A DNA stretch of 25,128 bases from a virus, in IMG/VR virus record IMGVR_UViG_3300025889_000881, positions 1-25,128 of that record, one strand, 5' to 3'. Below the pieces are notes generated by a model, which did no database searches, had not been told where the DNA came from, and worked only from the letters and a program-made list of their open reading frames with translations. Made by a program: the position numbers and the translations under genes. Below are positions 1 to 23,908 of the stretch, in pieces; the first letter of the stretch is position 1, and the number at the start of each line of letters is the position of its first letter.

Positions 1-1948
1 TTACCTTGTCAGTACCGCCCATTCCTTGATGCCATGTAGGCCAGCCAACTGCCGATGTTCGACTTTTACAAATTATCATAGCGGGTGTCGTTCCAAGCCC
101 ATGACCAACCGAAGATGTTGTACCCGTTCCCGTATACGAAACAATACTAATCCCCGCAGTCGTATTCGCTGAGACTGTGCTGGATACTGTTCCGTCTGTG
201 TTAGATACGCCAGCACCGTTGGCTTTCCAGTTCCAAGAGATATAGGGTCTACTAGATGCGTTTGTTGATCCTGCTCCGCTAGTTTCTGTGCCAAGTGTAA
301 ATCCTGTCGAATCAAATGATAAAAGCCCAGATCCAGCAGTAAGGGTGTATTCAGAGTTAGTTAAACTGCTTGCAAGCGTTTTATTGATTCCTCGTACTTG
401 GTCAAATAAAACATGATGGTTTGCGTCTTGCCTATCTTTAATCCAAACCAACCCACTTGCAAGACCTGTTGTTACAACCAAACCAGATGATCCCGTTCCT
501 GTGTATGTTGTTGCGCTAAAGTGGTCATCCCCCTGCGCCACAGTTGGCTCAGGTAGGTTCGTTGTGACAAGTGCCTTGAAGCCAGATGGTGCTGTGTGGG
601 CGAAGGGTCGCTGGCCGAAGTTTATATACATGACCGATGGGTCATTCATAGAAAATGCAAAGAAATACGGCCCAGAAGTTAGGCCGGTATATGCCGTTCC
701 TTGGCTAACATTATTTTTGTAAAATGTAAGCGTTCCAACGTCAGCATCAAACGCAATTCCAATTACATCGTTACTCGTCCAAGAAGACCCGTATGCTACA
801 GAACTTAAATTATGTTGTTTATTCCCACTATTACTAATGTAAGCCCAACCACCAGCGTTATCACCAAGGTAACCGTTAATGTTTACGGCTTGCGTAGCAA
901 TGCCAGCCCTAGCATATAAAGTACCTGAAATTGATGTTACGGTTGCTTCGCAATACCATTTTCCAGATGACATTCCGATGGTTGCAATGGATGTTCCCCA
1001 AGCCGCAGAAGGACCAGTTAGTTGAAGATTACCATTTGCAAGCGTGTTGGTATTATTTAATGCATTCCAAGTAGCGTAATTCCCCCGCACCTCGCCACCA
1101 GCACCCGTGTCTGTACCGTAAGGTGTAGGTGTGTCCACCAGAGAATCGTTACCAGCACCCGCAGTTACAGAGAAGTTGTTAGGTGTCCAGTTATTCCCGT
1201 TGCCAGAAATGTCTTTGCCGAGTGTGGTCGATGTGGTTCCGCTGTTATCAGAGAAGTCTAAGTGAAACCCGTTTGTGCCGTAGGAACCCGCATAACGAAT
1301 AGGTGACCAGACTCCTGTGGTTTCGTTGGTCTCACCGAAAGACGATGGGGTTAGTGCTTGACCATCTATGAAATTTATTTCTGTGAGGTAGCCATCTAAA
1401 AAATAATTTGTTGTTTGAGCGTGTCTACCAATGGCGTGAGGCTCAGTTGTGTTAATTCCAAAATCAAAATTTTGACTAGGCCAATTTGTGCCTTGCGTTA
1501 AAGTTTGCCTCACATTGTTTACATATAATTTTAATCGATCATCTGATGTTGCTTGTGTTGTATCAACAACCAAAACAATGTGATACCAAGCAGACACATC
1601 TCTAAAAAGAGCAGGTGTTGTAAAAACATCAAAGTCATAGGTATGGACGCCCAAACAATTATCTGCCCCGCTTGTGCCACCACCATCATCAAATTCAAAA
1701 ATAAAGTTGGTGCTTGTTGATGCTCCCGATGCTGGATTGCAAGCAAATAAAACCTGCCCGTTTGTTTGAGCGTCTAATTTTGCTCGCTTTACCCACCCAC
1801 TCCATGTCCATGTCTTGCGGTTACCAGCACTCGCAGGAGTCCTACTCAGATACGCAGAGTCAGCAGAGTTAAACCGCAGAGAGCGTGAGATTTCGTAGTC
1901 GCCAGCCGCAGAGCCAGCCGCCGCAGTGGTTAAGGCTTTGCTTAACAT
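1..1948 (-). CDS. Partial lectin-like receptor-binding/tail adhesin protein (LamG + SPRY domains)
   Basis: I translated this by hand from an ATG at 1948 that overlaps the stop of the upstream fibre (TAATG). The frame is open to the left edge, so at least 649 residues are present and the C-terminus is missing. Residues about 22-195 resemble a concanavalin A-like/LamG domain, with SLRFNSADSAYLSR, TWTWSGWVKR, AWYHIVLVVD and DGYLTEINFIDGQ. Residues about 310-447 resemble a SPRY domain, with GKWYCEATV, VIGIAFDAD, GTLTFYKNN and a closing INFGQRPF. Residues about 480-640 contain TYTGTG and SVGHGLGTTPAMII motifs of a kind I associate with phage adhesins (DUF7483-like, from memory). It probably binds the host surface at the distal tail. 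Codons are much AT-richer than in other virion genes (many AAT, TTT, ACA, GTT), suggesting a separately acquired module. A dispersed set of short ORFs in this stretch are shadows. Confidence 0.82.
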   Translation of the reverse strand, partial: MLSKALTTAAAGSAAGDYEISRSLRFNSADSAYLSRTPASAGNRKTWTWSGWVKRAKLDAQTNGQVLFACNPASGASTSTNFIFEFDDGGGTSGADNCLGVHTYDFDVFTTPALFRDVSAWYHIVLVVDTTQATSDDRLKLYVNNVRQTLTQGTNWPSQNFDFGINTTEPHAIGRHAQTTNYFLDGYLTEINFIDGQALTPSSFGETNETTGVWSPIRYAGSYGTNGFHLDFSDNSGTTSTTLGKDISGNGNNWTPNNFSVTAGAGNDSLVDTPTPYGTDTGAGGEVRGNYATWNALNNTNTLANGNLQLTGPSAAWGTSIATIGMSSGKWYCEATVTSISGTLYARAGIATQAVNINGYLGDNAGGWAYISNSGNKQHNLSSVAYGSSWTSNDVIGIAFDADVGTLTFYKNNVSQGTAYTGLTSGPYFFAFSMNDPSVMYINFGQRPFAHTAPSGFKALVTTNLPEPTVAQGDDHFSATTYTGTGSSGLVVTTGLASGLVWIKDRQDANHHVLFDQVRGINKTLASSLTNSEYTLTAGSGLLSFDSTGFTLGTETSGAGSTNASSRPYISWNWKANGAGVSNTDGTVSSTVSANTTAGISIVSYTGTGTTSSVGHGLGTTPAMIICKSRTSAVGWPTWHQGMGGTDKV

Positions 1949-3717
1949 TAAGCGTAACTCCCGACATAAGCCGCATACAAGGTCGTACTGACTTTCCAAA
2001 ATACAAACACATCCTTATTCGTCACAGTAGGTGCTGCATTGCCAGCACTGGTAGTCCAGGTCACAGTAGGCCATACGGGTGCATAAGTGTCACCATTCTC
2101 TAGGTGCAATACAACCGTCTGCCCAGCTTCCAGTGAATCAGTAAAGGTGGGCGCACCAGTAGCTACACACACTTGAATCGAACCGTTAGCTGGATCAAGT
2201 GCAATGCTGCCGCTGGTACCTAATGTATATACAGTCTCTTTTAATTCAGCAAATGTCTGCTGTGCAGTAAAAGCCTGGGCTACATCCGTCTTGGCTGTGT
2301 CAGCATCATAGGCTTGAACATCTGTACCAATGGCTAGTCCAAGATTTGTCCTGGCCGTTGCTGCATTGTCAAGGTCAGACAGATTGTTTGCAGACTCTAA
2401 AAATCCAGCAGTTGATATGACAACATTCTGCCAAGCAGATCCATCATAGATTCGACTGAGGTTGCTTGTTGTATTGAAGTACCAATCCCCAGCAGTCACT
2501 GGATCGCCCTCATTATCCAAAGAAGGATCACTTGCTTGAGCGCCCAGATAAGTGGCATTGAATGAAGCAAGGGCAGCTTCAGCAGCAGACTGTGCGGTAG
2601 CTGCACTGGTTGCGCTATTGCTTGCATTGGTTGCGCTTGTCGCTGCATTGGATGCGGAGGTTGAAGCAGCAGACTCAGAGGCAGCTGCGTTCGATGCTGA
2701 CGTGCTGGCAGATGATGCGGAACTGGACGCGTTGGTCGCAGAGGTCGAAGCATTCGACGCAGAGGTCGAAGCAGCTGATGCAGAAGACGATGCATTGCTG
2801 GCACTGGTCGCAGCCGCCGACTCCGAAGCAGCTGCATTGGTCTCGCTTGTTGAGGCAGCGGATGCACTGGCCGAGGCTGCTGAGGCAGAGCTTGCTGCAG
2901 CCGTTGCGGAGTTCGACGCATTGGTGGCTGAGGTCGATGCACTCGAGGCGCTGTTGCTCGCGTTGGTTGCGCTTGTGGAAGCGTTCGATGCGCTCGTCGA
3001 GGCGTTACTTGCAGACGTAGATGCCGCGCTTGCTGACGATGCAGCGGCAGTAGCCGATGCACCTGCTGCCGCGTTGTCCACAAGCAAATCCCACTTAGCA
3101 ACATCGGCATTGGTGTCAATCGGCTGTGCGCCGCTCGAAGTGTGTGCAGTGTTGGCGTAGTAGATGTTGCCGTTGCTGGTGTCTTTAACAATGTCGCGCT
3201 TGTTGTAGCTAGTGCCTGCCGCCCAGTTGCCGCGATTGTCACCAATTACCTCACCAATCACCGGGTTGCCGTTGGAGTCAAATGCAAGTGACTTGTTGGC
3301 TCGCACCGATGCGCGTGGCAGCACCATGTTAATGCTGGTCGGGTCAGTCTGCGGTGCCTGCAGCGCACGCTGCAAACCTTCTGCATTTTGCTGCGCAAAG
3401 ATGGTCTGCTGGTCGAGCTCGTCGTTCAGAGTATTCGCAAAGAAGTCGCCGCCCGTCGTGAAGTCGGTCGCCCGCGCAATGGTCCTGTTGCCAACGATTG
3501 CGATCTGCGTGCCGGTAGGCGAGGCCACCAGAGTGACAGAGCCTGTGCCGTTGGCGTTGATGGTGACCGTGTAGTCAGTCGTCAGAGTCAGCAGCGTGTC
3601 GTCTTCGTAGACCGCGATATCGCTGGCTGCGAGAATCTCGAAGGTGAACGCATACGGCCCCGTGCCTGAGGCAGCAAAGACAACTCGGCGGGTGACGTTT
3701 GAAATAGCTACTGGCAT
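1948..3717 (-). CDS. T7-type tail fibre protein with long Ala/Ser/Asn repeat
   Basis: A 589-residue tail fibre. Residues 1 to about 125 look like the T7 gp17-type N-terminal domain that anchors fibres to the tail (TRRVVFAASGTGPYAFTFEI early on; FFANTLNDELDQQTIFAQQN later). Residues about 163-212 resemble a small carbohydrate-binding-like module (NWAAGTSYNKRDIV, YYANTAHTSSG, KWDLLVD). Residues about 212-385 are a low-complexity Ala/Ser/Asn/Thr repeat, expected to form a long helical trimeric rod. Residues about 388-433 hold a DWYFNT...IYDGSAWQNV motif common in fibres, followed by a short C-terminal region. The ATG at 3717 has an AGGAG ribosome binding site about 10 nt upstream in the short gap after the 980-residue gene. 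It is translationally coupled to the adhesin, which may attach to its tip. Fibre function is confident; trimeric structure is inferred. Confidence 0.88.
   Translation of the reverse strand: MPVAISNVTRRVVFAASGTGPYAFTFEILAASDIAVYEDDTLLTLTTDYTVTINANGTGSVTLVASPTGTQIAIVGNRTIARATDFTTGGDFFANTLNDELDQQTIFAQQNAEGLQRALQAPQTDPTSINMVLPRASVRANKSLAFDSNGNPVIGEVIGDNRGNWAAGTSYNKRDIVKDTSNGNIYYANTAHTSSGAQPIDTNADVAKWDLLVDNAAAGASATAAASSASAASTSASNASTSASNASTSATNASNSASSASTSATNASNSATAAASSASAASASASAASTSETNAAASESAAATSASNASSSASAASTSASNASTSATNASSSASSASTSASNAAASESAASTSASNAATSATNASNSATSAATAQSAAEAALASFNATYLGAQASDPSLDNEGDPVTAGDWYFNTTSNLSRIYDGSAWQNVVISTAGFLESANNLSDLDNAATARTNLGLAIGTDVQAYDADTAKTDVAQAFTAQQTFAELKETVYTLGTSGSIALDPANGSIQVCVATGAPTFTDSLEAGQTVVLHLENGDTYAPVWPTVTWTTSAGNAAPTVTNKDVFVFWKVSTTLYAAYVGSYA
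2565..3085 (-). repeat. Degenerate tandem repeat encoding the Ala/Ser/Asn fibre shaft
   Basis: Within the tail fibre gene, short units of about 21 bases recur, encoding variations of SASNAST/SATNASN/SASAAST heptads over roughly 170 residues. Units differ in synonymous and non-synonymous positions, so this is an old, diverged repeat rather than a recent expansion. The skewed composition removes stop codons in other frames. That explains the long shadow frames on both strands here (for example 2552-3160 plus and 2496-3245 minus). Repeat number could set fibre length. Confidence 0.8.
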
Positions 3718-3750: not shown

Positions 3751-6693
3751 CTAATCGCCTTTATAAAAGAGGCCAAATGCCTCCCGATTCGCTTTTAATT
3801 GATCAATTTTCACTGAGAGCTCTGGGTCTTCCGCTAGCAGCTGCTGCCTGGCCGCGCCCATGTACTTGTCGTGCAGCAGGCGAATGAGGCGCTGCTGCTC
3901 GTCCAGGCTTTGCATATCGAAACCTGGGCCGGTGGCCAGGTCATAGATGGCCATCTTCGCGGTCATGCCGTTGAACTCGAGCTCCTTGCCGTAGATCGTC
4001 AGCAGCCGGTTGTACTGCTCGGAGCTTAGGTCCACGCCATTGATCTTGCGCTGTGGCATGGTGATCGGCGAGCCCATCTGCACCAAGATGTCGTCGGTCG
4101 GGGAGAACTGGCCAGGCGTGACACGGGTGGGCAGGATCATCTCGTAGGCCTTGCCCTTGCCCTGCATGATCGGGTCGCCCCATAAGTTGAGCTTTGGGGG
4201 TAGCGTGGCCGAAAGACCTGGCACGCGGGCCATGTACTTCTTGAAGGCCTCGTAAAAACCTTTGACGCCCATGGGTAGGTCCTCGCCCTTGACTGACGTG
4301 TCAGAGGCCATTGGGTCCATAAACCGCTCGATGGTGGCCACTGCTGAGTTGTAGGCCCCGATAGGCGAGCCACCGATACCGAAGCTGCCGAACTGTTTGA
4401 CCAGGGCATCGATTGTGTCTTCGACTGTCTTGTTGGTGTTTGCGATGCCACCCCCAAATGCGCCAGCAATGTCGGCCACGCCCGTGAGCCAGGGCTGCTC
4501 GCCCATATAGTTGTACATGCCATAAAGCGCGCCCATGAAGACCTCTTCGATCTTGCCGGCGTCTTCTTCATAGCGGGCGTACTCGGCATAGTCAGCGGCC
4601 ATGGCCAGGAATGCCGAGATCGGTTCCATGCCGTTGAAGCTGAGGTAGACCTTGTCGTCGCCAATCGACACGCGGCCCAGAGCAGACAGCCGCTCGACCT
4701 GGCCCTCGTAATCAGCACGCGGCAGCACCAGGGAGTAGGGCTGCCAGCCACCGCGCAGCAGCGCCTCACGGTCAGCACGTCGTCCAGGCCCGCGCCCGGT
4801 GAGGTAACCCTCAGACGATAGGCTGGCAAACGTAACAAGCAGTGCAGAGCCCATAGTGACCTTGGCCATGGCTAGGTCGCGGTACGGGCCACCCTTGGCC
4901 ATGTCAGCGCGGAAGCGCGAAGAGATTGGGGCAAAGGGCGTGCGCTCAATTACCTCAAGCGCAATGTTGGCCGGCGTCCGAAAGAACGGCACCACCATTT
5001 TTGCGATAGGGTGCTGGAACGCCCCTTCAATCGAACGCAGTGCTGGTGGAAGGTCCATTGTGAACGTGCTCTTACGGGCATACTCCATCGCCTCCGCGTC
5101 AATGTCTGCCGGTGGATTCTTAAAAATATTCTCAACCTCTTGCTGCGCACGGGCGCCGGCCAGGGCCTCATCAGCACCACCCTCAATGGCCTCACGGTAG
5201 ACAGACTTGCCACGGCGAATGGCCAGCCGGTTGAATGCCGTGCGATAAAACCAGCCCTTGTAAAACTCGTCCTGAGTCAGCAAGGCCTTACCTGGGATGG
5301 TGATGGCCTTGCCGTATAGGTCCACGCCTTTGGCCAGCAATCCGTCTGCCTGCATACCAAAGGCGGCAGCAGAGATTTCGGGTTGGTCACCACGCCTGGT
5401 GAGCTCGAGCTTGCTGATGGGGTCGCTTGGCATTCCCGTGTTCCAGGTGCGCCTGCCGAGTTCGAGACCCTCGCGCACCCCGGTGGTCAGAGCTTGCATC
5501 TCGGTGAGGAACTCGTCGAACTCCACCTTCTCCTTTGCGCTGCCGGGCACCGTCGCACGCCAGGACCTGGCCCACTTGGGTAGCACGTTTGAGTAGAACG
5601 CAGCCATGATGCGCTCAGGCACCTGGTAGGCGCCAAAGAGCGTATTGCCGGTAATGTTCTTTGCGTGCGTGACAGGTGAGGACAGCAGGCCATTGATCCA
5701 AGTGGTGAACCAGACGTCCTTGAGGGTGGAGAACATCGACTTCTCGATGATCTGGTTCTTGGCTGCCTGGTTGGGTGCAGACAGGTAGGCACGCGCCAGA
5801 TCCTGCAGGCTGTTCTCACCGCCACCTTCTTCCAGGGTCCTGCGGATCAGGTCGATGTTGCTGGTGTCACGCGGCACGCGCATGACAGCCAGGGCTCGGG
5901 CCGTTTCGCTCTGCACACCTTTGACCGCTTTTTGGATCAGGCCGTGCATGGTCACTTGCTGGCGCAGCTGCAGCTTCTGGATGTCTGTTGCCTGGCCATT
6001 GGCCACCAGGCCAAAGAGCCTGCCGAGCTCATCAGCAGATGCCTCGAGCACCTGCATGGCGCGGTACACATCCACCGCGTTGCCGGCCATCTGGTTGTTG
6101 TTGTCCAGCAGCCTGGTCAAGAACCGTTCATCCACGCCCAGGCCAGCGGCCTTTTCTTTAATCTGGTCGAAGGTCACCTTCTGGGTCTTGATGCCGAGCG
6201 CATCACCCACGCCACCGATGATCGCGCTGATGTTGTCGGTCTGCATATTGGCCAGGTTGAACGCTTCCTCAGGAGGCTTGCCGTCGATGTTCACATCGGC
6301 AGCCCGCTTCTCTATAGCAGCCTGCACGTCGTCCACAGTTTGCTGTGGCGCCTCGGGCATGATCGTCGTCTTGTCTTTGACCGTAGCCTGCGGGAGATCA
6401 CCAGGGTCTGTCTGTGGGCCAGGAATGATGGGGCGCTGCGAGGCCTGAGGGTTTTTCTTTAAACCCTCCAGAGCCTGGTCTGCGCCCTGCTTAACCACGC
6501 CGCGCAGAAACGAGCCGACGCCGGCCACCTGCGTGGGGTCCTCCATGGCGGGCTGGCCCGGCTGGTCAGTGGTAGTCATCCCTGAGTCTTCAGGGTATGT
6601 AAGCGGCTCGGGTAGTTCTGGTGCCGGCTGCTCGACCGGCAGCGGCTGGGGAAGGATGGAGTTAAGGCGGTCGTCGAGAGGCTTGGCGGCCAT
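3751..6693 (-). CDS. Large internal virion/ejection protein (T7 gp16-like position)
   Basis: A 980-residue protein occupying the last and largest place of the ejection-protein block, the position of gp16 in T7-like phages. The N-terminus (about 1-125) is Pro/Gln/Glu-rich and probably disordered. The middle and C-terminal parts are mainly helical, with a hydrophobic stretch near residues 605-625 (KVTMGSALLVTFASLSSEG) and further apolar segments such as AFLAMAADYAEY and GGIANTN. Such proteins are packed in the capsid and injected to form a conduit across the envelope; this role is inferred from position and size. I see no lytic transglycosylase motif, unlike T7 gp16. The ATG at 6693 overlaps the previous stop (TAATG). 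A 233-codon frame at 4137-4838 is a shadow. Confidence 0.7.
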   Translation of the reverse strand: MAAKPLDDRLNSILPQPLPVEQPAPELPEPLTYPEDSGMTTTDQPGQPAMEDPTQVAGVGSFLRGVVKQGADQALEGLKKNPQASQRPIIPGPQTDPGDLPQATVKDKTTIMPEAPQQTVDDVQAAIEKRAADVNIDGKPPEEAFNLANMQTDNISAIIGGVGDALGIKTQKVTFDQIKEKAAGLGVDERFLTRLLDNNNQMAGNAVDVYRAMQVLEASADELGRLFGLVANGQATDIQKLQLRQQVTMHGLIQKAVKGVQSETARALAVMRVPRDTSNIDLIRRTLEEGGGENSLQDLARAYLSAPNQAAKNQIIEKSMFSTLKDVWFTTWINGLLSSPVTHAKNITGNTLFGAYQVPERIMAAFYSNVLPKWARSWRATVPGSAKEKVEFDEFLTEMQALTTGVREGLELGRRTWNTGMPSDPISKLELTRRGDQPEISAAAFGMQADGLLAKGVDLYGKAITIPGKALLTQDEFYKGWFYRTAFNRLAIRRGKSVYREAIEGGADEALAGARAQQEVENIFKNPPADIDAEAMEYARKSTFTMDLPPALRSIEGAFQHPIAKMVVPFFRTPANIALEVIERTPFAPISSRFRADMAKGGPYRDLAMAKVTMGSALLVTFASLSSEGYLTGRGPGRRADREALLRGGWQPYSLVLPRADYEGQVERLSALGRVSIGDDKVYLSFNGMEPISAFLAMAADYAEYARYEEDAGKIEEVFMGALYGMYNYMGEQPWLTGVADIAGAFGGGIANTNKTVEDTIDALVKQFGSFGIGGSPIGAYNSAVATIERFMDPMASDTSVKGEDLPMGVKGFYEAFKKYMARVPGLSATLPPKLNLWGDPIMQGKGKAYEMILPTRVTPGQFSPTDDILVQMGSPITMPQRKINGVDLSSEQYNRLLTIYGKELEFNGMTAKMAIYDLATGPGFDMQSLDEQQRLIRLLHDKYMGAARQQLLAEDPELSVKIDQLKANREAFGLFYKGD

Positions 6694-15886: not shown

Positions 15887-17494
15887 TTAGGCCCCTTGTG
15901 GTGGTGGTTGTGGTGCGGCTTGCTGCATCTGCATCTGCTGCATGGCCAGCATCTGGGCCTGCTCTGCAGCTGCGCGCTCTTCGATGAGCAGAGTGCGTTC
16001 AGCCGCGTCATTTCGGACTGCGGCAGGCACCCCGAGCTTGTCGCCCAGGTAGTCCACCACGGCGCTTGTCTTGATGGCGAGCTGACCCTCAGCCCCGAGC
16101 GGCCCGACCAGCTGCAGGTACTGCAGAATGGCGTTGACCTCTTCCATGTTTTGCGCCATGGCAAGCGGCGCCACAGGGGCGACCCTCACCTCCAGGCCAT
16201 TGACTCGCAACGGCATGTCGATCAGACCGCGCTCATCCATCACCTGCAGGATGCGACCAACCAACGGGACCATCGTCTCGTTGATAAGACGGCCGAACGC
16301 CGAGCCCAAATTCTGCGCGAGCTCCTTCATGCGCTCGACCACCTCGGTGGCCGATCTTGCCGACATGTTGTCAGGCGGCAGGCTCTCATCAAGCAGGATG
16401 CGCTTGATGTTCATGCGCAGGTCGTTGATCACGATCTGACTGACGTTGAAGTCGCCCGAGCGGGGCAGGGGTTTCAAGCTGTCGCCCTGGGGGCCACCAT
16501 TACGCGCCACGGGAATAATCGCGCCCGGCACAATCTTGACCGTCTGCGGGTTGAGCACGCCGTCGTCGGCTGCCGTATAGGCGCCCGATACAGCCAGGCT
16601 CGCATTCTTCAGCAGCAGCTCAAGCGTCTTGTTTAAGGTCTTGATGTCGGGCAGGGCAGTAAGCAGCGGGCCGCGCCCATACACCTCGCCTGAGACTTTC
16701 ATGTAGCGTGAGATCACCCACGGCGAACCCTTCATGCGTCGGTAAACAATTTCTTCTTTCGAGACCTGGTCGATGACGTGGTAACACCAGTCGCCGCGTT
16801 CTGAATCGTAGACTGTGGCCTCGAGTAGGTCCACGTCGTCGGTGGGCTTTTGTTCAATGCGTTGCTTGACTTGAATTGGAAACTCGGCGTCTTTCCACTG
16901 CTGCTGGATGGCCTCGCCCTTCATGCGCATCTTGCGGTAGATCTTGTCTACCTGGCCGTTGGCGCCCTCCTCATAAGCGAGGAGAAACATCGGCACGGGA
17001 ATGAAGTTGATCGGGCTCACGTCGTCGCCAGGCATCACCAACATGCCGGCTGTGCCCACCGCTAAGTCGAGCAAGAACTCGCCAATAGCGATGTCGAAGT
17101 TGCTCTGCTTGAGCACGGCAAACATCTTCTCGCCGTAAATGTCGAGGATTGTTTGCGCTTGGCTGCGTCGGTCCTCAGGAATATCGGGGCCGGGCTCAAG
17201 ACGCGCCCACTTGCGCTGCGGGGGGAAGATTCCCGACTGCAGTCGGTTGGCAAAACGCTGGGTCGAACTGATGGCCGTGGAGTCAAACACTCGGGCCATC
17301 TTTTTGTTGCCCTGGCTATTGCCTTCCCAGTAGCCATACAACTGGCGCTGGGGCAGGGCAAACTCGTAGGCGTCGCGGTAGAGGTCCTCGAAGAGGTCCT
17401 TCTTGCGCTGCGCCACCTCGGCCCGCTTGATGATGTCTTCAACCTTAAGCCGGTTGCCCTCGTACTTCTTGCCTTTTTCGTAGACTTCAGCCAT
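15887..17494 (-). CDS. Head-to-tail connector (portal) protein, T7 gp8-like
   Basis: A 535-residue protein, the size of T7 gp8 (536). It begins with a helical segment (DIIKRAEVAQRKKDLFEDLY), then YEFALPQRQLYG and a VFDSTAISSTQRFANRLQSG block that is a hallmark of podoviral connectors, followed by IFPPQRKWARLEPG. The mid region has SPWVISRYMKVSGEVYGRGP and LPDIKTLNKTLELLLKNA, and the C-terminal domain has ATEVVERMKELAQNLGSAFG. The last 30 residues are Gln/Met/Ala-rich. It forms the dodecameric ring at the packaging vertex, binding terminase and then the gp11-like adaptor. The ATG at 17494 overlaps the DUF6321-like gene by 8 nt. Confidence 0.93.
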   Translation of the reverse strand: MAEVYEKGKKYEGNRLKVEDIIKRAEVAQRKKDLFEDLYRDAYEFALPQRQLYGYWEGNSQGNKKMARVFDSTAISSTQRFANRLQSGIFPPQRKWARLEPGPDIPEDRRSQAQTILDIYGEKMFAVLKQSNFDIAIGEFLLDLAVGTAGMLVMPGDDVSPINFIPVPMFLLAYEEGANGQVDKIYRKMRMKGEAIQQQWKDAEFPIQVKQRIEQKPTDDVDLLEATVYDSERGDWCYHVIDQVSKEEIVYRRMKGSPWVISRYMKVSGEVYGRGPLLTALPDIKTLNKTLELLLKNASLAVSGAYTAADDGVLNPQTVKIVPGAIIPVARNGGPQGDSLKPLPRSGDFNVSQIVINDLRMNIKRILLDESLPPDNMSARSATEVVERMKELAQNLGSAFGRLINETMVPLVGRILQVMDERGLIDMPLRVNGLEVRVAPVAPLAMAQNMEEVNAILQYLQLVGPLGAEGQLAIKTSAVVDYLGDKLGVPAAVRNDAAERTLLIEERAAAEQAQMLAMQQMQMQQAAPQPPPQGA

Positions 17495-20126: not shown

Positions 20127-21683
20127 TCACCCGAAGATATTGAACTCGGTCTCGGCCTGGGCCTGCCCAACAAACTGCCCGCTCACACCTAGCGGCGTCT
20201 TGGTCATGCGCCGATGTTCACCGCCACCGAGCAGAAGGTAGCCAAAAGCGTCGCCAATGTGGCTGTGCTCGTTTTTATTGGGCGCATCCCTGAACCGCTC
20301 CTGGCCGGCGCCGATGGCCACGCGCTTGAAGTGGTAGCCGCCGCCCAAGGATTTCCTCAGCAGCTTGCATTCGGTGCTCACGATCAGGCCAGGCTTGCCG
20401 ACAATGAGCCGCTGCATGGGCATGGCTGCGGCCTCCCGCCGCACCTTGAAGTCGTTGCTTGGTGCAGGCTGCGCCCGTAGGCCCAGGGTGCGCAGGTAGT
20501 CGAACGCGGTCACCTCGTAGATCGCATCGCGCTGCATACCGGCCGGGTCACCCCAGAGCATGATCTGGGCTTTCGGATATCGGGCGTTGAGCTCGGCGAG
20601 CAGCTGCTGGCCGAACCGCTCTAGGCCCATGTCGAAGGTGACAATCTCATGCAGGATTACCCAGCGGCCGTTCGTAAATCGCTGGCCGATGGTTGCGGCT
20701 GGCGTCAGGCCGAAGTCGAGACCCACCTGAAGGGGAATAGAGGGGTCGTATTCGACTTCGCCCGACATCAGGCTGTCGTCGTACTCGGGCCAGACCGGCC
20801 GGCCTTCTTGGACGTAGGTGTACTGGCCGCCTGCGTAGCAGCGAATCCAATCGAGCTGCTTACCGAGCAGCATCTGCGGGTAGTAGCCTGGCGGCAGGTT
20901 GCCGATGTTCTCGGCCTTGGGGTTAACCTTCCACCACTTGCCCGAGGCAAAGACGTGGTCGTTCGCCTCTGGTGCTTCAGGCAAATCGACCGGGTCCACT
21001 TGCACCACGCCGCCAGGCTGCTTAAAGAACTTCCAGGCGTAGGCGCCGGTCATCTTCTCTTTCTCGGCCATGCGGTGGTACCAATGGTCGTCGTCCATTG
21101 GGTTGGTGTCGAGCCAGATCCCGTGCCAGGTCGCGCCACCGTCGCGCTTGGTGGGGTAGCGTCCGACCCGATGGGTGAGGCCATCGACAATCGCCTTGGG
21201 TAGCTCTCGCGCCTCATTGACCCAGGCACCTGTGAGCTCTAGGGAAAGCAGCTTTCTGACATCTTTAGGTTGATCTAAGGCGATAAAGATCACCTCACAG
21301 TCGATGCCGGCCGCGTCACCGCGTGACGGCAGCCGTATATGGTGGGTAATCGGTGGCGTCCACAACATTGCCCCGAACGTGTTTTCGGGGAATAGGTCCT
21401 GCCATGTCTTGATGGTGGTCGTCTTCAACATGGGGTAGCTGTTGCGCACAATTGCGAAACGGGTGTAGCGGATGCCGTCTACAGGTGAGGGCTTTTGCCT
21501 GACGGCACGCAACATGACCTCAGCCGCGCAAGCGTAGCTCTTACCTGACCCCACGGGGCCCATCAAGCCACGCACGAATGCGTCGGACTGCAGGAAGTTG
21601 TAGACGACGGGCGAGGTCCTGAAGTCGAGGTTCAGGCCCGTGGTGGGCAGCTCTTTGCTGCCGGTCTCTTTAGTTCTTGCCAC
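20127..21683 (-). CDS. terL: Terminase large subunit
   Basis: The 518-residue packaging motor, from a GTG at 21683 with GAGG spaced about six bases upstream. The ATPase domain has a Walker A GPVGSGKS at residues 42-49 and a probable Walker B region, LTGAWVNEARELP. The nuclease domain shows acidic motifs QVGLDFGLTPA (near 320), IMLWGDPAG (near 375) and HSHIGDAFGYLLL (near 470), as in RNase H-like terminase nucleases. It cuts the concatemer and translocates DNA through the portal. A longer in-frame version from 21770 would put the reading frame across the DUF3310-like gene and gives an unconvincing Ser/Arg-rich N-terminus, so I prefer the GTG. It overlaps the DUF3310-like gene by 14 bases. Confidence 0.95.
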   Translation of the reverse strand: MARTKETGSKELPTTGLNLDFRTSPVVYNFLQSDAFVRGLMGPVGSGKSYACAAEVMLRAVRQKPSPVDGIRYTRFAIVRNSYPMLKTTTIKTWQDLFPENTFGAMLWTPPITHHIRLPSRGDAAGIDCEVIFIALDQPKDVRKLLSLELTGAWVNEARELPKAIVDGLTHRVGRYPTKRDGGATWHGIWLDTNPMDDDHWYHRMAEKEKMTGAYAWKFFKQPGGVVQVDPVDLPEAPEANDHVFASGKWWKVNPKAENIGNLPPGYYPQMLLGKQLDWIRCYAGGQYTYVQEGRPVWPEYDDSLMSGEVEYDPSIPLQVGLDFGLTPAATIGQRFTNGRWVILHEIVTFDMGLERFGQQLLAELNARYPKAQIMLWGDPAGMQRDAIYEVTAFDYLRTLGLRAQPAPSNDFKVRREAAAMPMQRLIVGKPGLIVSTECKLLRKSLGGGYHFKRVAIGAGQERFRDAPNKNEHSHIGDAFGYLLLGGGEHRRMTKTPLGVSGQFVGQAQAETEFNIFG

Positions 21684-21888
21684 TGGTGACCTCGAGCAGC
21701 TTTTCCATGTAGTGGTGCGCCTTCTGGATATCGTTTGGGCCTTTGGTTCTCGCAAGGTATTTGATGACATTGCCTTTGAGAAACCCGCGAAACTCCTCTG
21801 GCGTCATCCAGGCCTGCATGGCTGCCCAGGGCTCAACAGCCAGGGTTTTATAGTGGTCGCCTCCGACCTGTCGATCATCTGCCCCCAC
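21670..21888 (-). CDS. DUF3310-like small protein
   Basis: A 72-residue protein of the DUF3310 type: QVGGDHYKTLAVEPWAAM, then FLKGNVIKYLARTKG and DIQKAHHYMEKLLE. This fits the family in order and spacing. DUF3310 occurs in many phages, sometimes called nucleotide kinase-like, but its role is unclear. I chose GTG at 21888, which follows the previous stop by two bases and has GAGG five bases upstream. A TTG at 21930 would add 14 residues inside the upstream gene. Its location between the terminase genes is likely a matter of operon packing. Confidence 0.88.
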   Translation of the reverse strand: MGADDRQVGGDHYKTLAVEPWAAMQAWMTPEEFRGFLKGNVIKYLARTKGPNDIQKAHHYMEKLLEVTSGKN

Positions 21889-22282: not shown

Positions 22283-22452
22283 GGCGTGCTCCTTTCTTCA
22301 AGAATCCTGATTCGGGCCCGTAGGTCGTCAAGCTCTTTGTGCGCTATGCGCCAGGCTTCGCGCCAGACCAGGCGAGCCACAGCGAGCTCGTCCTCGGTCC
22401 ATGTTCGCGCATCCTGACGGCGCTGCAACCAGCCATCAAAGCTGTCTGGCAT
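22279..22452 (-). CDS. Small charged helical protein
   Basis: Found by direct translation: 57 residues from ATG 22452. It is highly charged and Trp-rich (SFDGWLQRRQDARTWTEDEL, then ARLVWREAWRIAHKELDDLR), predicted as one or two amphipathic helices. I know no function. It overlaps the 3' end of the small terminase gene by 17 bases and the next microprotein by 4. Its position suggests a translationally coupled role in the packaging operon. Confidence 0.65.
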   Translation of the reverse strand: MPDSFDGWLQRRQDARTWTEDELAVARLVWREAWRIAHKELDDLRARIRILEERSTP

Positions 22453-22888
22453 CACGCTCTTCTTGCACGTCTTCGATCTCTGGGGCCTGCACGTTGATGC
22501 CGATTACGCTGGGCTTTTCGCTGCCGTCGTCAGGGTTATCCAAGAGGCCAGAAGCTTTAGCCAAGAGCCGCAGCACACCCACCTTGTCGTAGAGCTCCAC
22601 CTCCAGCGTAGAGGCCCCGTCCTTGCCCTTGGTGACCTTGATGTTCTTGATCGCCTGCAGGGCGTGGTCAGGGATCGCCGAGGCAGCCTTCACCTTCACG
22701 TTGCCCTCTTCGTCCCAGGCCAGGATGTCGGTGATCTTGGTGTTGGCCATGCACAGCAAGCTGTAGGCCACCGCCTCACGGTTCTCGATGATGGTCTGCG
22801 ACCGCTCCAGGCGACGCTGCACCGAGCGCACCCCGCCCCAGTTCTTCAGGCTTGGCACCTGGTTGGCTAGTCTTGGGGATCTAGGCAT
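22436..22888 (-). CDS. terS: Putative terminase small subunit
   Basis: A 150-residue protein. The N-terminal third (SLKNWGGVRSVQRRLERSQT) could hold DNA-binding helices. The later part IPDHALQAIKNIKVTKGKDG, STLEVELYDKVGVLRLLAKA and SGLLD is the pattern of small terminase proteins, in which a KVTKG..xEVELYDK..L..L beta/helix unit precedes an acidic tail (EIEDVQEERD). It recognises phage DNA and stimulates the large subunit. The ATG at 22888 immediately follows the TAA of the +1-frame ORF at 22889-23611 and overlaps the end of the methyltransferase gene by 8 bases. Confidence 0.8.
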   Translation of the reverse strand: MPRSPRLANQVPSLKNWGGVRSVQRRLERSQTIIENREAVAYSLLCMANTKITDILAWDEEGNVKVKAASAIPDHALQAIKNIKVTKGKDGASTLEVELYDKVGVLRLLAKASGLLDNPDDGSEKPSVIGINVQAPEIEDVQEERDARQL

Positions 22889-23615
22889 TTAACTTCCCCC
22901 ATGCTCGTCTAGCCACTTCTGGTACTTGTCCATTTCCAATGGCTCTAAGGCGGTCCACCCTAGCGGCCACCCCATCAGCCATTCGGTCACTAACGGCTTC
23001 AGATACCTTCCAATCAGGTTCGGATAACTTTCTCCAACACTGCCAACAAGAATCACTCCGTGAGTCCCATTTGCTTCGCTTGGAGTCAACTTTCTTACGG
23101 GTTTGTAGTCTTGGCTTGTCGTTGGAGTGCCCCACAATCCAGATGCGATCTCGCTGGTGCGGTGCGCCAACGTCTGCCGCTCCCAGCACTCCCCATTCCG
23201 CATCGAACCCCAGCGAGGCCAAGTCTCCGAGTACTCGGTCAAGCCCCCGAGAAGTGAGCATTGGTGAGTTCTCCACGAATACGAATCGGGGTCGAACCTC
23301 GCGAATGATCCTCGCCATTTCGGTCCACATCCCGCTTCGCTCTCCGTCAATCCCTGCTCCTTTCCCCGCGGCAGAGATGTCTTGACAGGGAAACCCTCCC
23401 GATACAACATCAACAATTCCTCGCCAAGGTCTTCCGTCAAAGGTTTGTATGTCATCCCAAATCGGGAAAGGCGGGAGAAAACCGTCATTTTGTCGGGCGC
23501 ACAATACGCTTGCTGGATAGGGTTCCCACTCGACTGCACAGACTGTTCTCCATCCAAGGAGATGTCCCCCAAGTATTCCTCCACCAGCACCTGCGAAAAG
23601 AGCCAGCTCATTCAT
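22881..23615 (-). CDS. dcm: DNA (cytosine-5-)-methyltransferase
   Basis: A 244-residue C5-cytosine methyltransferase. Motif I is ALFAGAGGG (near 5-13), motif IV GGFPCQDIS with catalytic Cys77, motif VI ENS at 115-117, motif VIII QRDRIW at 154-159 and motif X GNGQVP at 227-232. It transfers methyl groups from S-adenosylmethionine to cytosine, probably shielding phage DNA from host restriction. Only about 60 residues separate motif VIII and motif X, so the target recognition region is short and unusual. I chose ATG 23615, overlapping the previous stop (TGATG); the TTG three bases earlier is less likely. Base composition is AT-richer than the terminase genes. A second frame covers nearly the whole gene. 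Confidence 0.93.
   Translation of the reverse strand: MNELALFAGAGGGILGGHLLGWRTVCAVEWEPYPASVLCARQNDGFLPPFPIWDDIQTFDGRPWRGIVDVVSGGFPCQDISAAGKGAGIDGERSGMWTEMARIIREVRPRFVFVENSPMLTSRGLDRVLGDLASLGFDAEWGVLGAADVGAPHQRDRIWIVGHSNDKPRLQTRKKVDSKRSKWDSRSDSCWQCWRKLSEPDWKVSEAVSDRMADGVAARVDRLRAIGNGQVPEVARRAWGKLNA
22889..23611 (-). CDS. Overlapping +1-frame ORF inside dcm (possible dual coding)
   Basis: A 240-residue frame on the same strand as dcm, shifted by one base. Its ATG is 4 nt after the dcm ATG and its TAA is directly followed by the small terminase ATG. The predicted protein is not low-complexity and contains GEELLMLYREGFPVKTSLPR, FDPDSYSWRTHQCSLLGG, ETWPRWGSMRNGECWE and EWLMGWPLGWTALEPLEMDK. From memory, similar phrases appear in phage proteins annotated as DNA methyltransferase, but those entries could themselves be alternative-frame translations of related dcm genes; I cannot check this. 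No catalytic motif is visible in this frame. Its own ribosome binding site is not evident. It is either a real overprinted gene or an unusually long shadow. Confidence 0.4.
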   Translation of the reverse strand: MSWLFSQVLVEEYLGDISLDGEQSVQSSGNPIQQAYCAPDKMTVFSRLSRFGMTYKPLTEDLGEELLMLYREGFPVKTSLPRGKEQGLTESEAGCGPKWRGSFARFDPDSYSWRTHQCSLLGGLTEYSETWPRWGSMRNGECWERQTLAHRTSEIASGLWGTPTTSQDYKPVRKLTPSEANGTHGVILVGSVGESYPNLIGRYLKPLVTEWLMGWPLGWTALEPLEMDKYQKWLDEHGGS

Positions 23616-23908
23616 CAAAACGGGATATCGCCGTCAGGGTCATCGAGCTTGCTCGGCGCACTGGGCGAAGGTGTTCGCATGAACGATTGGTGGGCAGCCG
23701 AGTAGACCTCCTGCGCCGGTTGCACGGGTTGGCCAAGAGCAAGCGAGTAGAACTCCCCACCATTGCTCGACTTCTTCACCCAGGCCGATATCCAGTACTC
23801 CTGGCCGTCCATGAGCTTGATCTTGCCCGTGAGGTCAGGGCTCGTGTCCTTGGTCTTGTTCTTTGCCTTCCCCAGGGTGCCCTGGCCTGGCTTGTGTTCA
23901 TACGCCAT
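23615..23908 (-). CDS. Putative OB-like ssDNA-binding protein with SSB-type C-terminal tip
   Basis: A 97-residue protein. The middle region TGKIKLMDGQEYWISAWVKK and GGEFYSLALGQPVQ is beta-rich and resembles small OB-like/DUF736-type phage proteins. The linker after residue 70 is Pro/Ser/Gln-rich, and the last nine residues are DDPDGDIPF, closely matching the acidic DDDIPF tip by which bacterial SSB recruits partner proteins. It may therefore bind single strands or interact with replication/repair proteins of the host. The ATG at 23908 has AAGGAGA eight to ten bases upstream; its stop overlaps the dcm start. The family assignment is tentative, but the tip is seen directly. Confidence 0.72.
   Translation of the reverse strand: MAYEHKPGQGTLGKAKNKTKDTSPDLTGKIKLMDGQEYWISAWVKKSSNGGEFYSLALGQPVQPAQEVYSAAHQSFMRTPSPSAPSKLDDPDGDIPF

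Follow-up and report, generated by a model that had tools for sequence, protein, structure and literature searches.

The stretch of viral DNA analyzed here (hereafter the window) comprises 25,128 nucleotides, positions 1 to 25,128 of the IMG/VR record IMGVR_UViG_3300025889_000881, and contains on its minus strand a gene for a C5-cytosine methyltransferase (dcm) that is overlapped almost completely by a second open frame in the +1 register, which we will refer to as alt. The features of this locus and its surroundings are as follows:

22881..23615, minus strand: dcm frame, C5-cytosine methyltransferase, 244 amino acids (ATG at 23615, TAG stop at 22881)
22889..23611, minus strand: alt, the alternative (+1) frame, 240 amino acids, proposed small-domain subunit (ATG at 23611, TAA at 22889)
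23609..23615, minus strand: overlapping starts ATGAATG (dcm ATG 23613-23615, alt ATG 23609-23611)
23373..23396, minus strand: catalytic motif IV of dcm, GFPCQDIS (Cys77), by direct reading; invariant across the dcm alignment
23114..23131, minus strand: alt residues 161-166, GTPTTS, one PTPTA/TL-like unit where the variable region begins
22955..23005, minus strand: alt residues 203-219, YLKPLVTEWLMGWPLGW, the motif-IX-like segment (canonical RLTPRECARLMGFPD), located by hhalign with C-terminal pieces
22902..22946, minus strand: dcm motif X (RAIGNGQVPEVARRA), in DNA shared with the C-terminal helix of alt
22881..22891, minus strand: 3' junction TAAATG, where the TAA of alt abuts the ATG of the next ORF (22888)
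23615..23908, minus strand: upstream SSB-like gene (PHROG single-strand DNA-binding protein, 2.1e-11)
22436-22888, minus strand: 150-amino-acid ORF downstream of dcm/alt, without a PHROG match
20127-21770: large terminase (phrog_2, 9.4e-19)
15887-17494: head-tail adaptor (PHROG search)

The SSB-like gene ends in a TGA that shares bases with the dcm ATG (TGATG); 4 nt further on comes the alt ATG, with an in-frame TGA immediately 5' of it, and at the other end dcm extends 8 nt into the next ORF. The DNA of motif IV is read in the +1 frame as FPVKTS of alt. The coordinates and junctions given for the two frames in the original prediction, which had been made by reading the DNA without database searches, proved exact throughout; its label of small terminase for the downstream ORF remains unconfirmed, as this ORF matches no PHROG, although a large terminase is encoded further downstream.

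Relatives were chosen by their dcm and not by alt, in order to remove ascertainment bias, and the +1 frame was open in 79 out of 79 usable ones, the expectation from synonymous shuffling of the dcm codons being 5.5 stops per gene and a mean probability of an open frame of 0.0022; neither the +2 frame nor any of the three reverse frames of the same set was depleted of stops. Among relatives chosen by alt (80 loci, one identical and the others 49-68% identical over the aligned part), the +1 frame was open across the whole dcm in all but one. As controls, 60 high-scoring canonical C5-methyltransferases showed 15.1 stops in the +1 frame vs. 14.8 expected, none of them being open, and the +1 frames of neighboring genes were open in 0 of 60 cases. 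For the dcm of the window itself, the longest +1 opening averaged 81 codons after synonymous shuffling vs. the 240 observed, a length reached by none of 300 shuffles, and this frame was the clearest outlier among 16 window genes (p<1/300, synonymous shuffling). Two further long openings were recorded in the window: the +1 frame of a gene of 980 amino acids at 3751-6693 (minus strand; 244 codons vs. 126 expected from synonymous shuffles, p<1/300, one of about 80 tests), whose sole relative found is distant (28%), and an antisense frame of 1948-3717 (minus strand; 139 codons vs. 53 expected, 0/300 shuffles). The caution, voiced beforehand, that the window holds other long shadow frames was fair, but it is dcm that stands out most.

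Purifying selection acts on the second frame. When substitutions were classed by their effect in both frames in 45 disjoint pairs of the window's clade, the NN/NS ratio of alt (a dN/dS-like measure) was 0.47 (95% bootstrap interval 0.40-0.54); a remote clade gave 0.47 (0.41-0.54), so that two independent clades agree. The corresponding controls were 0.79 in 30 neighboring genes under the same treatment and 0.90 in the 5' part of the remote-clade dcm genes, outside alt. The modal conservation of alt residues over 98 clade representatives was 0.72 vs. 0.46 after shuffling. The start of the gene is constrained at the level of single codons: codon 2 of dcm is AAT in 97/98 clade representatives, a choice that creates the alt ATG, while overall Asn usage there is 521 AAC to 514 AAT; codon 4 is YTG before G in 94/98, which creates Trp3 of alt, although just a third of the Leu codons are YTG. 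Since the shuffles ignore shared ancestry and were not corrected for it, the pairwise tests and the controls are those that carry weight. On these grounds the locus is a true overprinted pair, with both frames protein-coding and under selection; this is established from sequence evolution and is no proof of translation. The original prediction had raised the possibility that both frames were selected, forming a large overprinted pair, and this held, the finding having been understated: the synonymous variation of dcm, which it had proposed to measure, is reduced, in support of overprinting, and the stops or frameshifts in close relatives with an intact dcm that would have refuted it were not met, the frame being open.

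Signals for translation were also surveyed. A Shine-Dalgarno-like motif was found 4-18 nt 5' of the alt ATG in 146/179 loci, and this ATG is itself nearly invariant. In 22 loci, the usual position of the dcm start holds no start codon, and dcm has to start further upstream; several of these possess a clear Shine-Dalgarno motif for alt inside dcm (e.g., L050, ATGAACAAGGAGAATTTAAATG). Of 167 loci, 69 have the stop of an upstream gene directly 5' of the alt ATG, and in 39 the two overlap as ATGA. Downstream, the next gene starts between -4 and +3 of the alt stop in 103/175 loci and within the same distance of the dcm stop in 55/175, the values for shifted anchors being 3-47.

The overprinted arrangement is old and widespread. 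An alt frame was found in the +1 register of dcm in phages of Pseudomonas, Salmonella, Acinetobacter, Klebsiella, Vibrio, Stenotrophomonas, Mycobacterium, Paenibacillus, Synechococcus and Microcystis, and an HMM search added phages of Lacticaseibacillus, Porphyromonas and Bacteroides; the pair also occurs in prophages of many Proteobacteria, Akkermansia, Verrucomicrobia and others, and on Leptospira plasmids. It spans Proteobacteria, Actinobacteria, Firmicutes, Bacteroidetes, Cyanobacteria, Verrucomicrobia and Leptospira. In three remote clades whose loci were chosen by dcm, alt was present in 122/126, and five loci obtained with a fourth dcm query were without it. Given that the motifs of dcm partly dictate those of alt, the remote scores were compared with shuffles: the alt HMM scores of the remote clades lie 2.9-13 standard deviations above the dcm-synonymous shuffles of each gene and exceed all 200 shuffles except in one weak case, and two dcm genes without alt score at the shuffle background. 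The longest overlaps (L277, L365, L366 and L367) have a dcm of 431-520 amino acids with 367-457 open +1 codons and multiple PTP-like alt units; another locus, L238, carries an internal deletion with both ends kept. Two Escherichia coli loci were also recorded, one in strain PT62 (L489) with an intact pair that is 94.5% identical to that of Salmonella phage S9-5, and one in strain PCP07014 (L491) with both frames broken.

In no record examined were both frames annotated together; most list dcm, and the record of Pseudomonas phage phPA-G lists alt alone. The alt protein matches PHROG 1008, labeled "DNA methyltransferase" (8.3e-24; 95/95 clade members), and the PHROG 1008 matches found here have no detectable similarity to methyltransferases except for a short motif-IX-like end. 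No standalone alt was found in a PHROG 1008 search of bacterial genomes, where 42/42 confirmed matches were embedded in the +1 frame of dcm, so the label appears to describe the host gene dcm and not the protein. Two earlier expectations can be settled here: the phage entries named DNA methyltransferase that the +1 product had called to mind do exist and correspond to PHROG 1008, and the database check proposed for the 240-residue protein returned matches that were all embedded in dcm. No description of this overlap was found in the literature searched, whose coverage was incomplete; an apparent mention of PHROG 1008 there proved to be of phrog_10089.

In C5-methyltransferases, motifs I-VIII and X belong to a large domain, and the target recognition domain (TRD) and motif IX to a small one (PMC3404938). 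The dcm product matches Pfam PF00145 (5.5e-36) over profile positions 4-175 of 324 only; motifs I-VIII, including the PCQ, and X were found, a recognizable TRD or motif IX was absent, and residues 15-174 of M.HhaI align to dcm while the M.HhaI TRD does not. In a profile comparison, its C-terminal end falls on motif X of canonical enzymes (P=2.6e-6); GNGQVP was considered as a candidate motif IX and rejected, as it corresponds to motif X. Eight other dcm proteins bearing alt were scanned against PF00145, seven of which end at 167-180 and one (520 amino acids) reaches 280; two relatives without alt match the profile through 323-324. The interval between motifs VIII and X of dcm is polar, with a hydrophobic fraction of 0.18 vs. 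0.31 in the canonical TRD; the value for alt over the same DNA is 0.24.

The alt protein, on the other hand, was assigned to no family by Pfam, NCBIfam, PADLOC or PDB sequence searches, and the AlphaFold models of both chains were poor (pLDDT 54 and 52). Its C-terminal LNPxWVEWLMGFPxGW aligned on motif IX (RLTPRECARLMGFPD) with hhalign P values of 0.0044 and 0.002; the alignment is short and its probability is 8-14%, but the score was reached by 0/60 shuffled pseudo-alt sets. The variable region is made of PTPTAxDxxxG-like units, which form arrays in the longer relatives: P[STCA]P occurs 51 times in the alt of 26 relatives vs. 8.8 expected from dcm-synonymous shuffles, and the number of units rises with length (r=0.66). 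These units recall the TL motif of TRDs, P(STCA)PT(ILV)(TASV) (PMC2413257), although the likeness is partial, as PTPTA lacks the I/L/V and the window's alt has GTPTTS. The assignment of motif IX and TL units to alt is thus no more than suggestive, being inferred from sequence alone without fold support.

Because alt was found only with dcm, dcm has no recognizable TRD or motif IX, the VIII-X interval is polar and alt has motif-IX-like and TL-like segments, we favor, with a probability of about 0.6, a reading in which the two frames specify a single two-chain C5-methyltransferase, its large domain in one frame and its small domain in the other; translation, interaction and methylation are all inferred. 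In this view, the dcm frame would provide the large catalytic domain, in which a polar linker connects motifs I-VIII to motif X, and the +1 frame would provide the small domain with TL-like target-recognition units and motif IX. Ribosomes finishing the upstream gene may reinitiate at either of the two starts 4 nt apart, or alt may be started from the Shine-Dalgarno motif inside dcm, so that both chains would come from the same mRNA. The enzyme would act as an orphan modification enzyme shielding phage DNA from host restriction, and differing numbers of PTPTA units may alter its specificity or add further ones. The 25 families listed for 68 neighboring proteins included no restriction endonuclease. 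The original prediction had put forward the +1 product as a possible partner of the methyltransferase, which is still inference, now more specific in that the motif-IX-like end and TL-like units lie in alt where dcm lacks them.

Several described systems bear on this model. In M.EcoHK31I (YGGCCR), as proposed here, motifs I-VIII and X are on the large chain and motif IX is on a separate, smaller one (PMC3404938); the small-chain gene reportedly lies within the large-chain gene in a different frame, with both chains needed for methylation (Lee et al., 1995). It differs in that its TRD is reported on the large chain, where ours has none recognizable, and in being part of a restriction-modification system, whereas no restriction endonuclease is among the neighbor families shown here. 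The pair may be a widespread relative of the M.EcoHK31I system, a possibility that rests on analogy, without sequence comparison. M.AquI, as proposed here, has its catalytic and recognition halves on separate chains, but its smaller chain contains motifs IX and X (PMC3404938), while X is here in the dcm frame, and it lacks the almost complete overlap of the frames seen here. TRD swapping was addressed in the work of Trautner on phage C5-methyltransferases (cited in PMC2413257). Multispecific phage C5-methyltransferases have several tandem TRDs; they resemble alt in the repeated TL-like units of their variable region, and differ in that the units lie here on a separate polypeptide in a second reading frame. 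Outside this enzyme family, the out-of-frame HNH of mycobacteriophage ShiLan (PMC11855218) also lies in a second frame inside a phage methylase gene, but is a mobile inserted element and not overprinted methylase sequence; the lambda spanins Rz/Rz1 (PMC9409062) are also a phage gene nested in another frame with partner products, but are unrelated proteins with a smaller overlap.

The alternative that survives best is that alt is real but is not the missing small domain, being instead an independent regulator, anti-restriction factor or DNA-binding protein that arose inside dcm, and this remains a real possibility. The coding evidence says nothing on function, alt has no fold or domain match, and alt is open despite a premature dcm stop in five relatives, a viral contig (L153) and four prophages (L173, L185, L196 and L216), the stop of L173 falling inside the catalytic motif (FPC*DIS). 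The reverse case, a truncated alt with an intact dcm, was found in L007 only. A pure subunit role leaves the five dcm-broken loci unexplained unless the decay of dcm is recent, and alt could conceivably function without dcm. Against an independent protein, alt was never seen apart from dcm, the dcm proteins that bear it are those without a canonical TRD and motif IX, and its motif-IX-like end beats all shuffles.

We consider it unlikely that the +1 frame is only an extension reached by programmed frameshifting, yielding a fusion of dcm motifs I-VIII with the C-terminus of alt. In such a fusion, motif VIII would again be followed by TL-like units and motif IX, and two loci are natural frame-swapped forms, L245 reading from the dcm into the alt frame and L232 from the alt into the dcm frame. 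Nonetheless, the ATG and N-terminal half of alt rank with its best-conserved parts, alt has its own Shine-Dalgarno motif in most loci, and motif X is still conserved in the dcm frame. Less probable still, judging from substitution and stop patterns alone, is a constraint on the nucleic acid (RNA structure or a regulatory element) in place of a second protein: the synonymous sites of dcm are indeed constrained, but the constraint follows the genetic code of alt, NS changes being about twice as frequent as NN, and stops are missing from the +1 frame while the +2 and reverse frames are undepleted. Finally, a shadow ORF, open and apparently conserved only through dcm motifs and base composition, is practically ruled out: shuffled dcm genes still reach about 5-150 bits on the alt HMM and the window has several other long shadow frames, but stop depletion, NN/NS, start invariance and HMM excess are all beyond the shuffle nulls, canonical C5-methyltransferases show none of these signals, and in the test by synonymous shuffles this explanation accounted for part of the HMM score and not for the excess.

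Returning to the two-chain reading, a bolder form of it, which we would neither press nor discard, is that the locus represents a large and ancient class of C5-methyltransferases with the catalytic domain in one frame and, in the other, a separate small-domain chain of tandem recognition units and motif IX, whose specificity would evolve as units, bound to remain open in both frames, are gained and lost. In cellular and phage DNA, it is rare for a long same-strand overlap to be conserved across phyla, and this one covers most of a methyltransferase gene (up to 457 open codons) in phages from those of Mycobacterium to those of Bacteroides. Annotation pipelines retain one frame and discard the other, and in one protein-family library alt bears the name of the gene that surrounds it. 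Should alt prove to be the missing specificity domain, recoding or codon-optimizing dcm for cloning would cost the enzyme one of its two halves, and its recognition sites could not be predicted from dcm alone. The locus is also a natural system for the study of the co-evolution of two proteins under dual coding.
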